From positions 1 through 23,003 of IMG/VR virus record IMGVR_UViG_3300020027_000032: 23,003 bases of DNA. One strand, 5' to 3'. Below are positions 3,612 to 23,003 of the stretch, piece after piece. Positions within the stretch are counted from its first letter, which is position 1. Each line of letters begins with the position of its first letter. Made by a program: the position numbers and the translations under genes. The DNA is from a virus. The notes beneath the pieces were generated by a model, which was not told the origin of the DNA, searched no databases, and was given only the letters and a program-made list of their open reading frames with translations.

Positions 3612-4609
3612 TGGCAGCAGTAGTAGTCACCTCTCATGGCCTGCAGCAGCTCGCCCAGACCGGCAAAGCCGAGCCCACCGAGGCCCTGCCGCCCATGCGC
3701 CGGGAGGTGATTGCCCTCAAAAGGGCGGGCACACCACCACTCGATCCTTCAGTAAAAGTTGACGATCCGCCCAAGGATGGGGTACAAGCAAATGGCGCGG
3801 CTCCTACCGCGAGGCCAGCACCTAAGGAATTGTCCGAGGAGGATCTCCCCGAGCATGCCCGCAAGGTGATTGGCAAAAAGCACCGGGAAATGAAAGAGGC
3901 GACTGAGTTCGCCGAGTTCCAACGACTCGGACGGCTCACCGCAGAAAAAAGGGTTCAGGAATTGGAGGCGCAGCTTGCAAAAGCGACGCCGGCCAAGACC
4001 GAAGAACCCAACCGGGCGCCGGCCGACAAGCCAAAGCCAGAAGACTTCGCGAATGTTGCCGAGTACACCGACGCTTTGACTGATTGGAAGTTGGAGCAGC
4101 GCGACCAGCAACGGGCTCACAAGCAAGCTGAGAGTGAAGAAGCCACGCGCCAGACCAAAGCGTCTGAAACATGGCAAACACGCCTCGCTGCAGTGATGGA
4201 GTCGAACCCGGACTTTGAATCTGTCGTCACCACAGCCTTCAACGGCGCCGATGGCAAGATCGCAAAGACCGTCATCGACTACATCGAAGAGTCCGAAGTA
4301 GGTCCGCAGCTGCTCTATCACCTGGCCAATCACGCCGATGAATACGCGACATTTCGCTCGCTGCCCGCAGCGAAGGCCATTGGCTTTCTCGGGCGACTGG
4401 AAGCGAAGCTTGAGGCTGGCGCGCAGGCATCCAAAGATCCCGCACCAAAACCACAGGCTGCCGCTCCAGTGAAGAAAGTGTCACAGGCGCCAGCGCCAAT
4501 CGACACCTCTGTGGGCTCGGCCGAAGTGGTCCGCAAGGATCCCGGTGAGATGACCACTCAGGAGTATCTCGCGATGAAGCGGTCCGAAAGGAAATCGCGC
4601 GCGAGGTGA
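3611..4609 (+). CDS. Scaffolding protein, P22 gp8-like
   Basis: Directs coat assembly into a procapsid and leaves before or during packaging. The 332-residue protein is highly charged and mostly helical, with coiled-coil stretches near residues 75-120 and Pro/Ala-rich linkers. Its C-terminus (QEYLAMKRSERKSRAR) is a basic helix like the coat-binding helix-turn-helix of P22 gp8 (303 residues). I take the ATG at 3611, which overlaps the portal stop as TGATG; a GTG one codon upstream is also possible. It sits between portal and coat, the position of gene 8. It is in the same reading frame as the coat gene, separated by one TGA and 12 sense codons. Confidence 0.88.
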   Translation: MAAVVVTSHGLQQLAQTGKAEPTEALPPMRREVIALKRAGTPPLDPSVKVDDPPKDGVQANGAAPTARPAPKELSEEDLPEHARKVIGKKHREMKEATEFAEFQRLGRLTAEKRVQELEAQLAKATPAKTEEPNRAPADKPKPEDFANVAEYTDALTDWKLEQRDQQRAHKQAESEEATRQTKASETWQTRLAAVMESNPDFESVVTTAFNGADGKIAKTVIDYIEESEVGPQLLYHLANHADEYATFRSLPAAKAIGFLGRLEAKLEAGAQASKDPAPKPQAAAPVKKVSQAPAPIDTSVGSAEVVRKDPGEMTTQEYLAMKRSERKSRAR

Positions 4610-4645
4610 GTCGAGAGGTGGTGGCCATTTACTGGAGCCATCACC

Positions 4646-6001
4646 TTGCCGAACAATCTCCTGACTATCAGCTACATCACCAACGATTCGTTGGATGTGC
4701 TGGACAACATGTGCGTCATGTCCGGGTGTTTCACCCGAGAATACGACGATCGCTTTGCAGTCTCAGGCGCCAAAATCGGTGCAACCGTCAACGTCCGCCG
4801 GCCTCCTCGCTACCGCGGTACGTTCGGCCCGGCGCTCAACGTCGAGGACAGCAACGAGACGTTCATTCCCGTCACCCTGCGCAATCAGTTTCACGTGGAC
4901 ATGCAGTTCACGACGCAGGACATGCTGCTCAGCATCGACAACTTTCGCGAGCGATTCATCACGCCGGCAGTCGAGGCTGTGGCCAACCGCATCGATTCGG
5001 ATGGCGCCAACTTCGCCTATCAAAACATTCCCAACGCTGTTGGAACGCCGGGTGTGCCCGCGGCATCGTTCCTAACTTACGCCATTGGCAATGCCATCCT
5101 GGACGCTGAGGCGTGTCCCGGCGGGCCGCGCAACTGCGTGCTGGATCCTTTGACTTCGGCATTCGCCGCAGACGGCATCAAGGGCCTCTACAACCCGCAG
5201 GCCAACATCAGCGAGAACTTTCGTCGCGGCTTCGTGGCCACGAAGACGGCGGGGCTGGAATGGTGGAGGGACCAGAACATCGTCAGTTTCACCACCGGCG
5301 CACAGGGTGGCACCCCACTGCTGACGGCGAATACCGGTGGTGCTTTTCTCACGACCGGCTGGGTCCAGGATGGATTCATCCAAACGAACGGCTGGACGGC
5401 CAGTACCGGCGTGGTCAAGGTCGGCGATATCATCCAGCTCGCTGGCGTGTTCCCCGCCAACCCACAGAGCCGCACGCAGTACGGCACGGCGCAGAAACAG
5501 TTCGTCGTGATCCCGCCGGCTGGCTACGAGAACCAGCCAAACGGGCCTGCAACGCCGGGTTTGCGCTTCGCTGCTGCCACGCTGACCAGCGGCACTTTCG
5601 ACGCCTCCACCGGTATCTACACCTCAGGCGGCGGTGCTGGCGCACTGTCGATTCGCATCGCTGAGGCAGTGATCACCGGCGGCCAGTTCCAAAACGCTGT
5701 CACGACCGCTGCGTTCACTGCCACGGCTGCACTCACTGTCAACGGCGGCACTGGCAACGCATCCAAGGTCTCTCCGCAAGGTCTCATCCTGCACAAGTCG
5801 TGCATTGCGCTGGCGGTCGCAGACTTGCCGCTGCCAGGTGGCGTCGAGATGGCTGCGCGTGCAAGCGACAAGGACACCGGGCTGAGCATTCGGCTCGTGC
5901 GCCAATACACCATCAACAACGATGCCGAGCCGACGCGGTGCGATGTCCTCTATGGATTCGACCGTGTTTACAACCAGCTCGGCGTACGAGTCCAAGGCTA
6001 A
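4646..6001 (+). CDS. Major coat protein, P22 gp5-like
   Basis: HK97-fold capsid protein forming the icosahedral shell. It has 451 residues, versus 430 in P22 gp5. The N-terminal region has the P22 coat-family pattern: GATVNVRRPPRYRG (about residues 44-57), then NVEDSNETFIPVTLRNQFHVD and an FRERFITPAVEAVANRID helix. Start is TTG at 4646, supported by GGAG at 4634-4637 with an 8-base spacing; no ATG is available before residue 22, which would cut conserved sequence. A rare start codon for what should be the most abundant protein is odd. It follows the scaffold after a 36-base gap. Confidence in the role is high, in the exact start moderate. Confidence 0.92.
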   Translation: MPNNLLTISYITNDSLDVLDNMCVMSGCFTREYDDRFAVSGAKIGATVNVRRPPRYRGTFGPALNVEDSNETFIPVTLRNQFHVDMQFTTQDMLLSIDNFRERFITPAVEAVANRIDSDGANFAYQNIPNAVGTPGVPAASFLTYAIGNAILDAEACPGGPRNCVLDPLTSAFAADGIKGLYNPQANISENFRRGFVATKTAGLEWWRDQNIVSFTTGAQGGTPLLTANTGGAFLTTGWVQDGFIQTNGWTASTGVVKVGDIIQLAGVFPANPQSRTQYGTAQKQFVVIPPAGYENQPNGPATPGLRFAAATLTSGTFDASTGIYTSGGGAGALSIRIAEAVITGGQFQNAVTTAAFTATAALTVNGGTGNASKVSPQGLILHKSCIALAVADLPLPGGVEMAARASDKDTGLSIRLVRQYTINNDAEPTRCDVLYGFDRVYNQLGVRVQG

Positions 6002-6012
6002 GGAGCAACAAC

Positions 6013-6480
6013 ATGCCTTCAGTAAATCCAGGGCCGTCGGTCACGCAGACCGGCAACACCCTATCGACGCTGACGCCCGTCAGCACAAGCAATCTGCCCG
6101 TTCCGGTCGGGGCACAGGCATTGCGCCTGCTCGGCGTGGTCAAGGGACTGTCGGTTGCGACGGTCGGCGATCCGATCCAGATGCAGATCATCAACTCACT
6201 CACGTGGGTGCCGACTGTGGTGATCACGGCAAATGCCAACGTGACCATGGCCACCGCAACCGTGGGGCTCTACACCGCGGCCGCAGCGGGCGGCACTGCA
6301 GTTCTGACGGTCGCAGCGCTCACCGGCCAGACCACCAATGCCTTTGTCTACGTCCGGGCGGCGACCGCCGTGGCAGCCGCACAGACGGCTCAAACGCTGT
6401 TCGTCAACGTGGGCGTCGCAGTCGCAACTGGCACAGTCGATCTGTACCTGTATGGCTACGACCTGTCGGCATTGCCGTAA
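6013..6480 (+). CDS. Small Ala/Thr-rich structural protein, unknown
   Basis: This 155-residue protein is dominated by Ala, Thr and Val in alternating beta-strand patterns with almost no charged residues (for example VTMATATVGLYTAAAAGG). That composition is typical of capsid decoration or neck proteins rather than enzymes. The ATG is preceded by AGGAG (6001-6005), which overlaps the coat stop, with 7-base spacing: a strong ribosome binding site suited to high expression. Position directly after the coat gene is where many phages place a decoration protein. No family is recognised; a head-decoration role is inference. Confidence 0.75.
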   Translation: MPSVNPGPSVTQTGNTLSTLTPVSTSNLPVPVGAQALRLLGVVKGLSVATVGDPIQMQIINSLTWVPTVVITANANVTMATATVGLYTAAAAGGTAVLTVAALTGQTTNAFVYVRAATAVAAAQTAQTLFVNVGVAVATGTVDLYLYGYDLSALP

Positions 6481-11272: not shown

Positions 11273-11779
11273 TTGATTTCCTTCATGGTGGTGGCCGCGC
11301 CGCGCTCAGGGACGACCTGGGCAAGTAACTGGCTGACCACTGACACGACGCTGTGTCTCCACGACCCATTATGGACACGGCATTACAGCGAGTTGGATGT
11401 GATCCAGAGCGACAAAATGCTCGGGATCGCGTGTACCGGGATTGCGCTGTTCCCGGACTGGCTCAACCAGCATCCGGCTCGCAAAGTGATCCTACATCGC
11501 CCCCTATCCGAAGTTGACGCATCGCTGGCCGCCATTGGCTTGCCCGCCTGCTCCCATGCGTGGCGCGGGGTGCTCGATCGCGTCGACGGGTGGCACCTCG
11601 ACTGGCGCGACCTGTGGCGCATCCCTGAGCTGATCTACGAGCGACTGTTGCAGCGACCCATGGACGAAGAGCGCTACGAGCTGTTGCGACAGCTGCGCGT
11701 GCAGCCTGACTTTGAGCGCGTAGCGATCGATCCAGTCCACACGCAGCGTATGGTGCGCGCCATTCAAGGCGCGGCATGA
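11273..11779 (+). CDS. Miniature sulfotransferase-like protein
   Basis: Sulfotransferases move sulfate from PAPS to a hydroxyl or amine. The N-terminal APRSGTTW (residues 9-16) fits the 5'-phosphosulfate-binding loop. ARKVILHRPLSEVDASLAA fits the 3'-phosphate motif, with R76 and S84 spaced by eight residues as in classical cytosolic sulfotransferases. At 168 residues it is much shorter than the usual 250-300 and lacks the C-terminal GxxGxxK-type motif, so acceptor binding must differ or activity may be lost. Start TTG is chosen because GAGG lies 4 bases before it; an ATG four codons later is possible. The stop overlaps the next gene (ATGA), pairing it with an oxygenase-like protein. It could alternatively be another P-loop kinase-like protein. 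Confidence 0.68.
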   Translation: MISFMVVAAPRSGTTWASNWLTTDTTLCLHDPLWTRHYSELDVIQSDKMLGIACTGIALFPDWLNQHPARKVILHRPLSEVDASLAAIGLPACSHAWRGVLDRVDGWHLDWRDLWRIPELIYERLLQRPMDEERYELLRQLRVQPDFERVAIDPVHTQRMVRAIQGAA

Positions 11780-12318
11780 AGATCAAGCGCCTAACGGGCG
11801 GAATCCTGGTCGATGAGATTGCCGCTGCGCTCGATGCCAACCCGCAGTTGTGGAATCAGCACCGGATGCGCACCGAGAGTCCGCACAGCCCGCACCGCGA
11901 GGTTGACGACATCTGGGTGCGGTACAACGCGGCTGAGAACTTCACAACCATGGATGAGTTCAACGGCCCGCACGAGTCAACGTGGTATCCGTCTGCTGAT
12001 TTGTTACACGTGAAACAATTGGTGCTCGATGTGATGCGTTACGTGAGCGGCACTGCCCTGGGTGGCGTGCTCATCACGCGCATCCCGGCCGGCAAGCAGG
12101 TGTATCCACACGCGGATCAGGGCTGGCACGCGCGGCACTACGAGAAATTTGCACTTCAGATTCGCGGCAATGAGCGACAGGCGTTCTGTTTCGATGATGA
12201 GCAGCTCGTGACATTTCCAGGGGATCTTTACTCGTTCGACAACGCACACCGGCACTGGGTGAGGAACGAATCCGCCGAGGATCGCGTGACCATGATCGTT
12301 TGTGTGAGGAGACACTGA
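11776..12318 (+). CDS. 2-oxoglutarate/Fe(II) oxygenase-like protein, aspartyl/asparaginyl hydroxylase type
   Basis: Such enzymes hydroxylate a substrate using Fe(II), O2 and 2-oxoglutarate on a double-stranded beta-helix. The iron ligands are visible: H112-x-D114 in YPHADQGW, and a distal His, best placed at H160 in SFDNAHRHWVRNES, which matches the family pattern FDxxxxHxxxN. R170 in EDRVTMIV is placed to bind the 2-oxoglutarate carboxylate. The 180-residue length is a minimal single-domain form. No signal peptide is present, so it would act in the cytoplasm. It overlaps the sulfotransferase-like gene and precedes the ejection genes. The substrate is unknown: a virion protein, a host protein or a small molecule are all possible. 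Confidence 0.75.
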   Translation: MKIKRLTGGILVDEIAAALDANPQLWNQHRMRTESPHSPHREVDDIWVRYNAAENFTTMDEFNGPHESTWYPSADLLHVKQLVLDVMRYVSGTALGGVLITRIPAGKQVYPHADQGWHARHYEKFALQIRGNERQAFCFDDEQLVTFPGDLYSFDNAHRHWVRNESAEDRVTMIVCVRRH

Positions 12319-18007: not shown

Positions 18008-18316
18008 ATGAGCAACATCAACCCGGAAACCCGCCCGCCGGCCATCACGGAAGAACAACTGCAGCGGCTGCTGCAGTCAATCGAACGCATGCGCTCAGAG
18101 GGAAATGTGAGCCTCACAGATCCGCGCGTGTCGCAGGTGCAGACATGGATCCTAGGACTGGTCGGGATGGGATTGATTGCAGCCGGCTGCTGGGTGGCGC
18201 AGAGCATCGGTACTCTGAGTTCTACCGTTTCCGCCTCGGTACAGCGGCTCGACCAGTACGGCACAACACTGCAGGATCACGAGCAGCGACTCAGGGACCA
18301 GGAGCGAAAGCCATGA
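18008..18316 (+). CDS. Single-pass membrane protein with coiled-coil tail, unknown
   Basis: 102 residues. A charged N-terminal helix is followed by one transmembrane segment (about residues 46-66, TWILGLVGMGLIAAGCWVAQ) and a C-terminal helix with heptad spacing (VQRLDQYGTTLQDHEQRLRDQE). This layout recurs among phage membrane proteins in lysis regions, where such proteins act as holin partners or remain unassigned. The stop overlaps the next gene's ATG. Function is not established; an antiholin or pinholin-type role is one possibility. Confidence 0.7.
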   Translation: MSNINPETRPPAITEEQLQRLLQSIERMRSEGNVSLTDPRVSQVQTWILGLVGMGLIAAGCWVAQSIGTLSSTVSASVQRLDQYGTTLQDHEQRLRDQERKP

Positions 18317-18651
18317 GCGAGGATTCGCAATACGAGCATGAATTCATGTCCCCGCAAAACGGCTGGCAGCACCGAGGCAATGGTGGCGTGTATGCGCCAA
18401 TCGATGCCAGCAGCAACAAGTCTCTACCGTGGATCGTATTCAGTTGGTTCTTGAGCGGCGGCTCGATCATCGGGCTGATACTGCTGGCCATCATTCTGCC
18501 TTCGTATGTGGATTCCAAGATCGAGGGTAGGGTGGCGAAGGCCGAAGCAATTGCCGAGTTGGCTAGACGCGATGCCAGCATTTCGAAAGACATGGTTGAT
18601 TTAGATCGAGCGAAGTTGAAAGCGAAAGAGGAATTGAAGCATGAGCGATGA
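18313..18651 (+). CDS. Single-pass membrane protein, unknown
   Basis: 112 residues, starting at the ATG that overlaps the previous stop. The N-terminal 38 residues are polar, then one strong transmembrane segment (about residues 39-64, ending in GLILLAIILPSYV), then a charged, Ala/Lys/Glu-rich helix to the end. It is the second protein in a row with this topology, so the two may form a complex. It belongs to the lysis neighbourhood but no family is recognised. Confidence 0.7.
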   Translation: MSEDSQYEHEFMSPQNGWQHRGNGGVYAPIDASSNKSLPWIVFSWFLSGGSIIGLILLAIILPSYVDSKIEGRVAKAEAIAELARRDASISKDMVDLDRAKLKAKEELKHER

Positions 18652-18832
18652 AGAGGAAGAGCGGCGGCGAAGAAATGTCATTCGCATCGCTGCTGAAAGC
18701 TCCGTCCTGACAGCCGATCAGCGCGTTTTTCTGCGCGAGGTGGAAGCAGAGATCGGTGCCGGCATAACTCCGAATCCAATTGTGCGCTGGCAGGTACGGC
18801 GACTGGTTGGGCGAGTAGCAACAGGGCCGTGA
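18641..18832 (+). CDS. Small charged protein, unknown
   Basis: 63 residues, starting with an acidic then basic run (SDEEEERRRRN). It overlaps the preceding gene by 11 bases and the endolysin start by 4 (GTGA). AGAGG at 18627-18631 gives a ribosome binding site with 9-base spacing. It is soluble and probably helical. No function can be assigned; it is retained because of its ribosome binding site and coupling. Confidence 0.6.
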   Translation: MSDEEEERRRRNVIRIAAESSVLTADQRVFLREVEAEIGAGITPNPIVRWQVRRLVGRVATGP

Positions 18833-19356
18833 ACGTACTCACGCCCGAACTACTGATCCGCCTCATGCCCGCCGCCGGTGGTCGCGCGTCGATCCATGCC
18901 GAGCACCTCGAGCGGTCGATGCAGTCGGCCGAGATCAACACGGCGCAACGTCGAGCCGCATTTTTGGCGCAGATCGCGCACGAGTCTGGCAGCCTGCGCT
19001 ACGTTGAGGAAATTGCGGACGGCAGTGCGTACGAGGGGCGTGTGGACCTTGGAAACACACAGCCGGGTTGGGGCCGGCTCTACAAGGGAAGGGGATTTTT
19101 GCAGATTACGGGCCGCACAAACTACCGGCGCTGCGGCGAGGCGCTGAAGCTCGATCTGCTCGCATCACCCGCGCTGTTGTGCACGCCCGAGAATGCGGCC
19201 CGTGCGTCGACGTGGTTTTGGCAGTCGCGGCAGTTGAACGAGCTCGCCGACCGCGATCAGTTCGGTCTCGTCACCAAGAGAATAAACGGTGGTTACAACG
19301 GACTCGACGATCGACTCCAACACTGGCTGCGATGCCGGAAGATATTTGGACTATGA
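18829..19356 (+). CDS. Endolysin, GH19 chitinase-like lysozyme fold
   Basis: Cuts the peptidoglycan glycan strand at the end of infection. The 175 residues match the GH19-type phage endolysins: AAFLAQIAHESGSLRYVEE carries the catalytic glutamates E52 and E61, with the nine-residue spacing of the Salmonella phage SPN1S enzyme. RLYKGRGFLQITGRTNY (residues 83-99) is the conserved substrate-groove motif, and ITKRINGG-like sequence follows near residue 150. There is no signal peptide, so export would depend on a holin. The start is GTG overlapping the previous stop, and the holin candidate follows by ATGA overlap. Confidence 0.92.
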   Translation: MNVLTPELLIRLMPAAGGRASIHAEHLERSMQSAEINTAQRRAAFLAQIAHESGSLRYVEEIADGSAYEGRVDLGNTQPGWGRLYKGRGFLQITGRTNYRRCGEALKLDLLASPALLCTPENAARASTWFWQSRQLNELADRDQFGLVTKRINGGYNGLDDRLQHWLRCRKIFGL

Positions 19357-19541: not shown

Positions 19542-19729
19542 CTACCCCTGACATCTTGCTCATCCTCGGTGGCGTCGGCATCCTGCTCACCAACATCGGC
19601 GGGCTCGTGATCCAGATCATCACGGCCCTGAAAGTCGCGAAGGTCGAGACTCACACCAACGGCATGCAGCAGCAGTTGATAGCGTCGGCCAAGAAAGAGG
19701 GCGCACAGGAAGAGAAGGACAGGAAATGA
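19538..19729 (+). CDS. Small single-pass membrane protein of lysis cassette
   Basis: 63 residues. A long N-terminal hydrophobic helix (about residues 5-30, ILLILGGVGILLTNIGGLVI) is followed by a polar, Lys/Glu-rich tail. Coupled to the holin candidate (GTGA) and to Rz (ATGA). It could be a second holin component or an antiholin, since paired small membrane proteins often occur here. No direct evidence distinguishes these. Confidence 0.7.
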   Translation: MTTPDILLILGGVGILLTNIGGLVIQIITALKVAKVETHTNGMQQQLIASAKKEGAQEEKDRK

Positions 19730-20202
19730 TCTTCCTCGCCCGCTTCTGGCCGGTGTTCGCCGTTGCCGCGCTACTGGGATTGCTCACGTGGTGGGCGCAT
19801 GTCGCGCTCGATCGTGCCGACCAGCGTGGCTACGATCGTGCTACGGGCGAGATGCAAATATCAATTGCCGCGGCCAACGCCAAGGGCCGATCCGATGAAC
19901 AGGCAGCGCAGGCGCGCGCCAATGAGGTTGACCGTGAACATCAGAAAGCCATCACTGACCTTGTCGCCAAGTACGCTGCTCGCCCTGTGCCTGCTGTGCG
20001 GCTGTGCCCACCAGCAGCCCGTCAAGTTCACCTGCCCTCAGCCCCCGCAGCCGCCAGCGTCGATACTGCTGGCGCCGGAAGAGACGGACTTCCTGGGGCG
20101 GTTGCTCCAGATATTGGGCCACAGCTCGAGCAGCTCGTCAGAGTTGCCGACGAGCAAACCGAGCGATTGATTTCCTGCCAGGCATTTATCAATGCGAGGT
20201 AG
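19726..20202 (+). CDS. Rz: Inner-membrane spanin, Rz-like
   Basis: Couples to an outer-membrane lipoprotein to disrupt the outer membrane in the last lysis step. The 158-residue protein has an N-terminal transmembrane anchor (about residues 8-27, WPVFAVAALLGLLTWW) and a periplasmic helical region with Ala/Glu/Gln spacing (about residues 40-85), then a Pro/Ala-rich part and a final helix. The topology, the position after endolysin and holin, and a second frame carrying a lipobox inside it together make the call firm. Confidence 0.85.
   Translation: MIFLARFWPVFAVAALLGLLTWWAHVALDRADQRGYDRATGEMQISIAAANAKGRSDEQAAQARANEVDREHQKAITDLVAKYAARPVPAVRLCPPAARQVHLPSAPAAASVDTAGAGRDGLPGAVAPDIGPQLEQLVRVADEQTERLISCQAFINAR
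19934..20170 (+). CDS. Rz1: Outer-membrane spanin lipoprotein, Rz1-like, embedded in Rz
   Basis: This frame lies wholly inside Rz, shifted by +1, as in lambda. The N-terminus (MNIRKPSLTLSPSTLLALC) is a lipoprotein signal peptide ending in the lipobox L-C-G-C, so the mature protein starts at that Cys (residue 24) and would be lipid-anchored to the outer membrane. A Pro-rich stretch follows (PQPPQPPA), typical of Rz1. I take GTG at 19934 because GAGG sits 6 bases before it; an ATG at 19922 would add four residues and also fits. The length is 78 residues. Confidence 0.85.
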   Translation: MNIRKPSLTLSPSTLLALCLLCGCAHQQPVKFTCPQPPQPPASILLAPEETDFLGRLLQILGHSSSSSSELPTSKPSD

Positions 20203-20383
20203 GAACAAGCACAAGAAGCATGCCGTTGCTCACCTATGGCGCCGCGATCATCGAAACAAGATTCGCATCATCTCTGAATGCGGGAACGCGCAAAGTTTCG
20301 CCGACGATGTTGTAGTTGACGACAAGGCGCCTCTCTGCAAGCACTGCAAGCGATTATCGGGAGTTGGAAATGTACAGCGTTAA
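20192..20383 (+). CDS. Basic Cys-containing micro-protein, unknown
   Basis: 63 residues, very basic at the N-terminus (RGRNKHKKHAVAHLWRRDHRNK), with C30 and a later C49-x-x-C52 pair. This could be a partial zinc-binding site completed by a histidine, but four ligands are not clearly arranged. It overlaps Rz by 11 bases and the cellulase start by 14, so it is coupled on both sides. Small proteins with such Cys spacing are common in phages and unassigned. A nucleic-acid-binding role is only a guess. Confidence 0.55.
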   Translation: MRGRNKHKKHAVAHLWRRDHRNKIRIISECGNAQSFADDVVVDDKAPLCKHCKRLSGVGNVQR

Positions 20384-21593
20384 AGGCGGTTTGATCTTCG
20401 ACGGAACCAGCGAAATCAGGCTGCGGGGCGTATCGCACCACGGGTTCAACGCGCCGATATTGCGGCCTGAGTATCTGTGGGAGATGGGTTGGAAGGAGCA
20501 GCTTGCACAGATAAAGTCGCTCGGCTTCAACGCGGTGCGCTGTCCTTTCGTGCCGGATACGCTGAAGACGCCAAAGGGCGCAGATAGCTACCTCGAGCCA
20601 CGGCTCAATGCGGACCTGAGCGGCAAGACGCCGCTGCAGACCCTCGATATGTGGATGGCAGAAGCAGATCGCATCGGGCTGTACATCCTGCTGGACTTTC
20701 ACTCAGTCACGCCGAAGACACAGTTTCCTCTCTGGTACTGCAACGACCCGACATTGATTTACAACAAGAAGATATACACAAAAGAGAATTGGATTCGTGA
20801 CCTTGTGTTCGTTGCAGCTCGATACAAGCATCTGCCGCAGTTCCTCGGCATCGACATCTTCAACGAGCCGCACGGTGACGCGCGTTGGAACGCTGGCGAT
20901 TTGAACATGCAGAAGCCTTCCAATTACTGGAAAATTGAAGCGCAAATGGCCGCATCCTCAGTGCTCGCGGCGAACCCAAACATCCTGATATTCGTGCAAG
21001 GCTGTGTTGCAATGGACGGCAAGTCCAAGCCGGAAGAAGCAAATTGGGGCGAGGACTTTCAGGCGCACGCGTACGACCCGCTTAAGATGCCGAAGGACAA
21101 TCTTGTTTTGTCCTGCCACACCTACGGACCCGACGTGTACCGAAAGAAGCTGTTCGACGACCCAACGTTCCCGGCCAACCTGCCCGGTCACTGGGATACG
21201 TTGTTCGGGCAGTTTCGGACGGTACACGCCGTGGTCCCTGGAGAGTGGGGCGGGTTGTACGGCAACGGGCAGGTGAGTGAGTCGACCAAGAAACCCAGTG
21301 GCCCCGAAGACATCGCTTGGCAAAACGCCTTCGTCGACTACATGATTTCGCGGGGAATTCGCAGCAGCTTCTATTGGTCGTACACGCCGAACAGCGGTGA
21401 TACCGGCGGCGTGCTAGACAACAACCTGCAGGTGCGTGAGGACAAGATGGTCATGCTAAATCGGTTGTGGGCTGCGGCACCGCCGGTCCCAGTCGTTCCG
21501 CCCACACCTGGGCCATCGCGTCCTCAGATCATTGTGGCGGACGGCAATATACAGATCATCGGCAAGGGCAGCGTGACCATCACGGTTGGCTGA
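20370..21593 (+). CDS. GH5 endoglucanase (cellulase)
   Basis: Hydrolyses internal beta-1,4 links of cellulose or related glucans. The 407-residue protein is a complete (beta/alpha)8 GH5 domain (residues 1-370). Family residues seen: R57 in FNAVRCPF, H111 in LLDFHS, the acid/base E166 in IFNEPHGD, H250 and Y252 in CHTYGPDVY, the nucleophile E292 in PGEWGG, and W336 in YWSYTPNSGDTGG. The pattern resembles endoglucanases of Xanthomonas and Xylella. There is no signal peptide, so release by lysis is likely. A Pro-rich linker (residues 371-385) leads to a 22-residue beta tail where a carbohydrate-binding module might be expected. ATG at 20370 is chosen for GGGAG 6 bases upstream. Confidence 0.9.
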   Translation: MYSVKGGLIFDGTSEIRLRGVSHHGFNAPILRPEYLWEMGWKEQLAQIKSLGFNAVRCPFVPDTLKTPKGADSYLEPRLNADLSGKTPLQTLDMWMAEADRIGLYILLDFHSVTPKTQFPLWYCNDPTLIYNKKIYTKENWIRDLVFVAARYKHLPQFLGIDIFNEPHGDARWNAGDLNMQKPSNYWKIEAQMAASSVLAANPNILIFVQGCVAMDGKSKPEEANWGEDFQAHAYDPLKMPKDNLVLSCHTYGPDVYRKKLFDDPTFPANLPGHWDTLFGQFRTVHAVVPGEWGGLYGNGQVSESTKKPSGPEDIAWQNAFVDYMISRGIRSSFYWSYTPNSGDTGGVLDNNLQVREDKMVMLNRLWAAAPPVPVVPPTPGPSRPQIIVADGNIQIIGKGSVTITVG

Positions 21594-22480: not shown

Positions 22481-22490
22481 CTATTATTTA

Positions 22491-22500
22491 GTGCGCAGAT
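22491..22500. promoter_or_regulatory. Inverted variant of the operator-like element
   Basis: The minus strand reads ATCTGCGCAC, which is the 13-bp element with two bases (AT) removed and in opposite orientation to copy 1, about 20 bases away. Together the two could form a paired binding site for a dimeric or tetrameric regulator. Confidence 0.4.
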
Positions 22501-22504
22501 GAAA

Positions 22505-22684
22505 TTAGTTGCCCGGCGTCGCATCCAGCAGGCGCTGGACACCGGCTGATGCGCTCCCGTCCCCGAGCCGCTCAAGCCTGGCGATGGCCTCGTGTGGCAG
22601 GTACAGGTTGATGGCCCGGCCAGTGCGGCCGGTGCCGGTGCCCTTGGGGCGGCCGCGGGGGCGTTTGGGGGGTTGCTTGCTCAT
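22505..22684 (-). CDS. Ribbon-helix-helix transcriptional regulator with AT-hook-like arm
   Basis: 59 residues. The N-terminal arm KRPRGRPKG contains the AT-hook core R-G-R-P (residues 10-13). It is followed by a ribbon-helix-helix unit: strand RAINLYL (23-29), helix A from PHEAIARLERL (30-40), a turn at GDGSA, and helix B AGVQRLLDA (47-55). Such proteins dimerise and insert the paired strands in the major groove; Arc and Mnt of P22 are of this fold. The 13-bp element lies 13 bases before its ATG and again before the next gene, so it may repress both. No Shine-Dalgarno sequence precedes the ATG; a TAATAT ends 6 bases upstream, so the mRNA might be leaderless. Confidence 0.72.
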   Translation of the reverse strand: MSKQPPKRPRGRPKGTGTGRTGRAINLYLPHEAIARLERLGDGSASAGVQRLLDATPGN

Positions 22685-23003
22685 CCAGGGATATTAATCT
22701 ATGCGCACATGCATGCGCTACTTGGCCCGCCGCGTCGGTATCCGGATCTGAATCGCTCTCCGATATACAGCTACAAGGCATTGATTCAACTGTCCCAGAA
22801 ATTCCAATTTATGCCCGATTTTCCAACCCCTCGAAAACGCATATCCGTCGTTTAGATTCATAGTCTTGCGCCGCTGGCAGGCAAGTATGGGATGCATAAC
22901 TGCTACACCTCTGCTGCTGCCGAAATTCTCATGTTTTCCGATTCGTTCCCGAATCCTTCCTTTATCCAGTGTTCCCGATTTTCACCTTGACCCACTCCCC
23001 GCG
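22685..23003. other. AT-richer region without a supported gene
   Basis: No open frame here has a start, ribosome binding site and coding character. The left end holds the regulator's control element. A further weak minus-strand promoter match (TTGAAT at 22789-22784, TATATC at 22767-22762, 16-base spacer) could serve the regulator. CCCGATTTTC occurs twice, at 22814-22823 and 22974-22983, and GAAATTC twice, at 22798-22804 and 22922-22928. No tRNA, CRISPR or integrase end is recognised. It could be a control region or an attachment region between early genes and what lies beyond the window. Confidence 0.4.
22697..22709. promoter_or_regulatory. Operator-like 13-bp element, copy 2
   Basis: Identical to 22458-22470 and in the same orientation. 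On the minus strand it reads TGTGCGCATAGAT and is followed at once by TAATAT, a -10-like hexamer before the regulator gene. No recognisable -35 lies upstream. The arms GCGCA (22703-22707) and TGCGC (22714-22718) form an imperfect inverted repeat around it. Confidence 0.5.

Follow-up and report, generated by a model that had tools for sequence, protein, structure and literature searches.

The window analysed here, a virus record from IMG/VR with a length of 23,003 bases, contains a real and intact GH5 gene in an unusual setting. Its product has a complete catalytic domain and lacks an export signal, its closest kin are enzymes of bacterial exopolysaccharide (EPS) clusters, and the gene is carried by a phage, as the last one after the GH19-type endolysin and the Rz/Rz1 spanins, all on the plus strand (table 1). 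The reading that we favour, with a probability of about 0.5, is that the protein is an endo-beta-1,4-glucanase from an EPS-cluster source that would be released at lysis and cut the slime of the host.

Table 1. Position of the GH5 gene, its parts and its surroundings in the window.
Feature	Position	Strand	Basis
Short tail fibre; N-terminal anchor common to the beta-helix tailspikes of relatives, no beta-helix	17092–18006	+	comparison with relatives
Small membrane or holin-like ORFs, lysis region	18008–18832	+	first one has a relative in L012
GH19-type endolysin	18829–19356	+	PF00182, E 3e-9; phrog_181 endolysin, E 6e-58
Rz-like inner-membrane spanin	19726–20202	+	position; membrane helix at the N-terminus; Rz1 frame inside the gene
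Rz1-like lipoprotein within the Rz gene (lipobox LLCGC; approximate start)	19895–20170	+	sequence
Putative 63-aa ORF between Rz and GH5	20192–20383	+	ORF list
Predicted GH5 endo-beta-1,4-glucanase, 407 aa, without signal peptide	20370–21593	+	Pfam, PHROG, solved-structure and catalytic-residue matches
Pro-rich linker of GH5, about residues 370–385	21477–21524	+	sequence; P/T-rich linker at matching place in cellular relatives
C-terminal 22 residues of GH5, predicted two-strand hairpin	21525–21590	+	low-confidence model
Right end of window, identical to contig G003 (519/519)	22485–23003		G003 continues into a tyrosine integrase

The GH5 gene and its product

The reading frame runs from an ATG, with GGAG 7–10 bases before it, to a stop codon, and its product matches the Pfam Cellulase profile PF00150 across the catalytic domain and far over the curated cut-off (115.6 bits against 23.5, E 3.8e-33, profile positions 7–272 of 272). 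It also matches PHROG 18474 ('hydrolase', E 1.2e-38), and no near-identical DNA was found in named phages. In an alignment of the window protein with two relatives from IMG/VR and seven GH5s of named phages, the residues R57, N165, E166, H250, Y252, E292 and W336 are invariant in all 10 phage sequences; the window protein thus has the whole PF00150 catalytic set of two Glu plus Arg, Asn, His, Tyr and Trp, with E166 and E292 aligning to E201 and E342 of the Pyrococcus horikoshii endocellulase. The closest solved structure by sequence is 4tuf, an endoglucanase of Xanthomonas campestris (E 6e-76), and 4tuf, 2zum and 1ece are the top matches by both sequence and fold, the model (pLDDT 66, pTM 0.72) being used for the fold only because of its modest quality. 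We take endocellulases of the 4tuf, 2zum and 1ece type to represent GH5 subfamily 1, and these nearest characterised relatives point to an endo-beta-1,4-glucanase of that type. The profile match and the seven invariant residues agree with an earlier note on this DNA, which had described a complete and probably active GH5; judged from its sequence, the protein is indeed probably active as an enzyme.

The same note had reported that a secretion signal is lacking, and none is visible, even when an upstream TTG (20316) is taken as the start. The N-terminus lies at the point where the mature parts of the secreted cellular relatives begin, and the protein is a stand-alone enzyme, its catalytic domain beginning right there. 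At the other end, several cellular relatives have a P/T-rich linker followed by IPT, GDSL or CBM-like modules, and the window protein keeps a Pro-rich linker and stops 22 residues further on. This arrangement fits the idea, also raised previously, of a lost binding module; the short tail may be a stub or an anchor. The two strands of the tail (386–390 and 393–397) come from the low-confidence model, and searches with the tail against other phage proteins gave no homologue, or chance-level matches. A short N-terminal element and a Pro-rich linker precede the GH5 domain in three viral contigs (L045 7890–9101, L046 7893–9101 and L003 3399–4613), a mirror image of the way in which the window protein ends in a linker and tail.

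A gene of a P22-like temperate phage

Another contig, G003 (L004 and L018), represents the same phage: the left part of the window matches it at 6447 of 6448 bases, its right end is identical as well, and the two sequences combine into a circular map roughly 42 kb long. The GH5 gene itself is outside the part covered by G003; on the joint map it sits between the spanins and the integrase. Because G003 overlaps both ends of the window and phage genes lie on either side, GH5 cannot be a flank of host DNA; its assignment to the phage, made previously from the window sequence, is thus confirmed. The phage is temperate, as G003 runs into a tyrosine integrase, and the portal, stabilisation and ejection proteins, together with the integrase, identify it as a P22-like temperate podovirus. 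Its nearest cultured relative by portal and stabilisation protein is Xanthomonas phage PBR31.

Elsewhere in the window, a 451-aa ORF with a TTG start (4646–6001) is by its position probably the major capsid gene, and the ORFs 4606–5109 and 5113–5664 look like shadow frames of it. A conserved pair of ORFs (11273–11779 and 11776–12318) between the stabilisation and ejection genes is kept in L012 and L013; one member looks sulfotransferase-like by eye, with no Pfam match, and the other is Asp/Asn hydroxylase-like (PF05118).

The link of GH5 to the lysis genes had been argued from overlapping frames. The overlaps exist (11 nt between the Rz-like gene and the 63-aa ORF, 14 nt between that ORF and GH5); the 63-aa ORF, however, has no family match in Pfam or PHROG, so that the argument leans partly on an unconfirmed ORF, and if this ORF is discounted, a gap of 167 nt separates Rz from GH5. 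The Rz-like protein likewise has no profile match in Pfam or PHROG. Neither a sigma-70-like promoter nor an intrinsic terminator was found on the plus strand between the lysis genes and GH5, although the consensus used may not apply here.

Relatives in bacterial exopolysaccharide clusters

The closest relatives of the window GH5 are chromosomal, signal-bearing enzymes of Gammaproteobacteria with 57–63% identity (about 50% for that of genome G041). The tree places the window protein within the clade of chromosomal EPS-cluster GH5s with support of 100/100, and a phylogenetic check that had been suggested against Xanthomonadales endoglucanases shows it closer to these Gammaproteobacterial proteins than to the type enzyme from X. 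campestris. Within the EPS clade, phages may have acquired GH5 once or several times; a single clade of phage GH5s is not rejected (p-AU 0.63). A search of 369 genomes of the class for prophages of the window type gave one partial match.

The surroundings of the GH5 gene were read in six genomes, and in four of them (G009, G131, G066 contig 1 and G041) it lies inside a Wzy-type EPS cluster with a GH8 endoglucanase. The GH8 is confirmed in all four, and the Wzz, Wzy, acyltransferase, WecG and sugar transferase genes are Pfam-confirmed in G009 and identified by reading the sequences in the other three. In G010, GH5 is near Wzz and a kinase-like gene, and no recognisable EPS cluster surrounds the second G066 gene (contig 32) or the G642 one. 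Since the closest relatives reside in EPS clusters beside GH8, the enzyme is more likely to act on the slime of the host than on cellulose from plants. Of the substrates that the earlier note had considered, a host exopolysaccharide is thus the better supported one and a plant glucan the less supported.

GH5 genes in other phages

Two scans of viral contigs with narrower GH5 queries retrieved L002 and L003 only, and a wider alignment added five more contigs; the number of viral relatives is therefore a lower bound. In L002, a signal-less, stand-alone GH5 of the EPS-type clade is again the last gene after the lysis genes, and no L002 protein besides GH5 matches a protein of the window. In both L045 and L046, GH5 directly follows the gene of a small membrane protein and is followed by one small ORF and then an endolysin-like gene (hence two genes upstream of the endolysin, the profile match having been tested in L045). 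In the Erwinia phages S6 and phiEaP8, an anchor–GH5 fusion gene comes a few genes ahead of those for holin, endolysin and Rz. Shared by L002, L045, L046, S6 and phiEaP8, closeness of GH5 to lysis genes is a recurring arrangement in phages, which weakens the view that it is unusual to find a cellulase linked to spanins (S6, phiEaP8 and L045 all bear on it). Among 80 loci, none from another phage showed GH5 adjoining a related endolysin. GH5 lies among tail and head genes in L003, and in L043 its neighbours are the gene of the major head protein on one side and that of the major tail protein on the other.

Proposed release at lysis and alternative roles

Under the favoured reading, the phage lineage would have acquired the gene from a source in a bacterial Wzy-type EPS cluster, minus the export signal. 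The enzyme would be made late, together with the lysis proteins, and would stay in the cytoplasm until holin, endolysin and spanins have broken the cell open; once outside, it may cut the beta-1,4-glucan backbone of the host slime, and the progeny could then escape from the matrix and get to fresh cells. Phage depolymerases are familiar mainly as tailspikes fixed to the virion, which work on entry. If our reading is true, a free glucanase taken from slime-making machinery of bacteria and released by lysis would represent a second strategy, employed on exit, and the host is predicted to make an EPS with a beta-1,4-glucan backbone that limits the spread of the phage.

The main rival to this reading, less probable than it, is that GH5 is carried by the virion, attached through the Pro linker and the C-terminal hairpin or through some other part, and clears EPS on entry in place of the beta-helix tailspike of related phages. 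The spikes of L012, L015, L016 and PBR31 fuse the anchor domain of the window fibre to a beta-helix, and both contigs of the window phage encode the short fibre only, with no beta-helix spike; GH5 may thus be a functional replacement. The GH5s of named phages are virion proteins, anchor-fused in the S6 lineage. Among the phage GH5s that share the clade of the window protein, those of L002, L003, L045 and L046 have short appendages with Pro-rich linkers at either end, and that of L043, encoded between head and tail genes, has a tail-fibre-like N-terminus. The linker and short tail of the window protein, which also has a weak PHROG match to a tail protein, could serve as an anchor. Yet the window GH5 has no anchor domain, its tail matches no other phage protein, the appendages of the different phages are not demonstrably homologous, and L002 combines its GH5 with a spike-like protein.

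The location between spanins and integrase would also suit a gene that serves the lysogen by trimming or remodelling its EPS, like other genes found between the late operon and the integrase. In a small survey of this slot (the window, G004, PBR31, G007 and G008), cargo occurs in the window, G004 and PBR31, and none was seen in G007. At the corresponding site, the related phage G004 encodes a beta-helix protein that has a signal peptide (L019 11494–12402, minus strand, between lysis region and integrase), and PBR31 has a gene annotated as 'deacetylase' (L017 26930–27577), whose product belongs to the GDSL-family esterases (PF13472). Such a role in lysogenic conversion is nevertheless improbable here, because a protein without a signal peptide has no usual route to the EPS from an unlysed cell; moreover, GH5 is on the strand of the lysis genes and a promoter of its own was not seen. 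The GDSL family of the PBR31 gene recurs as a C-terminal module in two cellular GH5 relatives (L025 and L033).

As a speculation that joins several of these elements, P22-like temperate phages of this group might use the site between spanins and integrase as an exchangeable place for genes of polysaccharide-active enzymes, filled here by a signal-less EPS-cluster endoglucanase for which lysis would be the export route and which would act as a diffusible matrix solvent instead of the missing tailspike depolymerase. Least probable of all is an auxiliary nutritional gene for plant-derived cellulose or mannan: papers on soil and rumen viromes mention GH5 alongside auxiliary metabolic genes, but the closest relatives are in EPS clusters rather than plant-polymer loci, and an enzyme kept inside until lysis would bring the producing cell nothing.

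Comparison with known systems

The endocellulases of X. campestris (4tuf), P. horikoshii and Acidothermus share their fold and active site with the window GH5; they are non-phage enzymes with 32–39% identity to it, and 4tuf, the one included in the tree, falls outside the EPS clade. The chromosomal EPS-cluster GH5s (G009, G010, G131, G066 and G041) belong to the same clade as the window protein and differ from it by a signal peptide and, in several cases, by C-terminal IPT, GDSL or CBM-like modules. Phage PBR31 (38–49% identity), in which the integrase follows the lysis genes as in the window phage, has no GH5, a GDSL esterase in the slot and a beta-helix tailspike.

The best-known phage counterparts are S6 gp095 and its kin in phiEaP8, Pavtok, Klebsiella phage SopranoGao, Serratia phage Parlo and Pseudomonas phage Skulduggery. 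They have the same catalytic residues and are late genes, those of S6 and phiEaP8 being near the lysis genes like the window GH5. They differ in that GH5 is part of a large virion protein of about 650–930 aa, with 25–32% identity to the window GH5, and in that the phages are members of Schitoviridae or of other groups, whereas the window phage is P22-like and temperate. The large N-terminal virion domain is absent from the window protein, and the S6-type GH5s form a separate clade (100/100), so the tree rules them out as its immediate source. According to a commentary (PMC9544554), S6 gp095 degrades carboxymethylcellulose, and phage S6 uses cellulose as its first receptor; given this precedent, a role of the window GH5 in infection is plausible by either route, on entry or on exit. 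Phage GH5 cellulases are thus already known, and what the window adds is the clue to the substrate offered by the EPS clusters and a separate lineage of phage GH5s with neither anchor nor signal.
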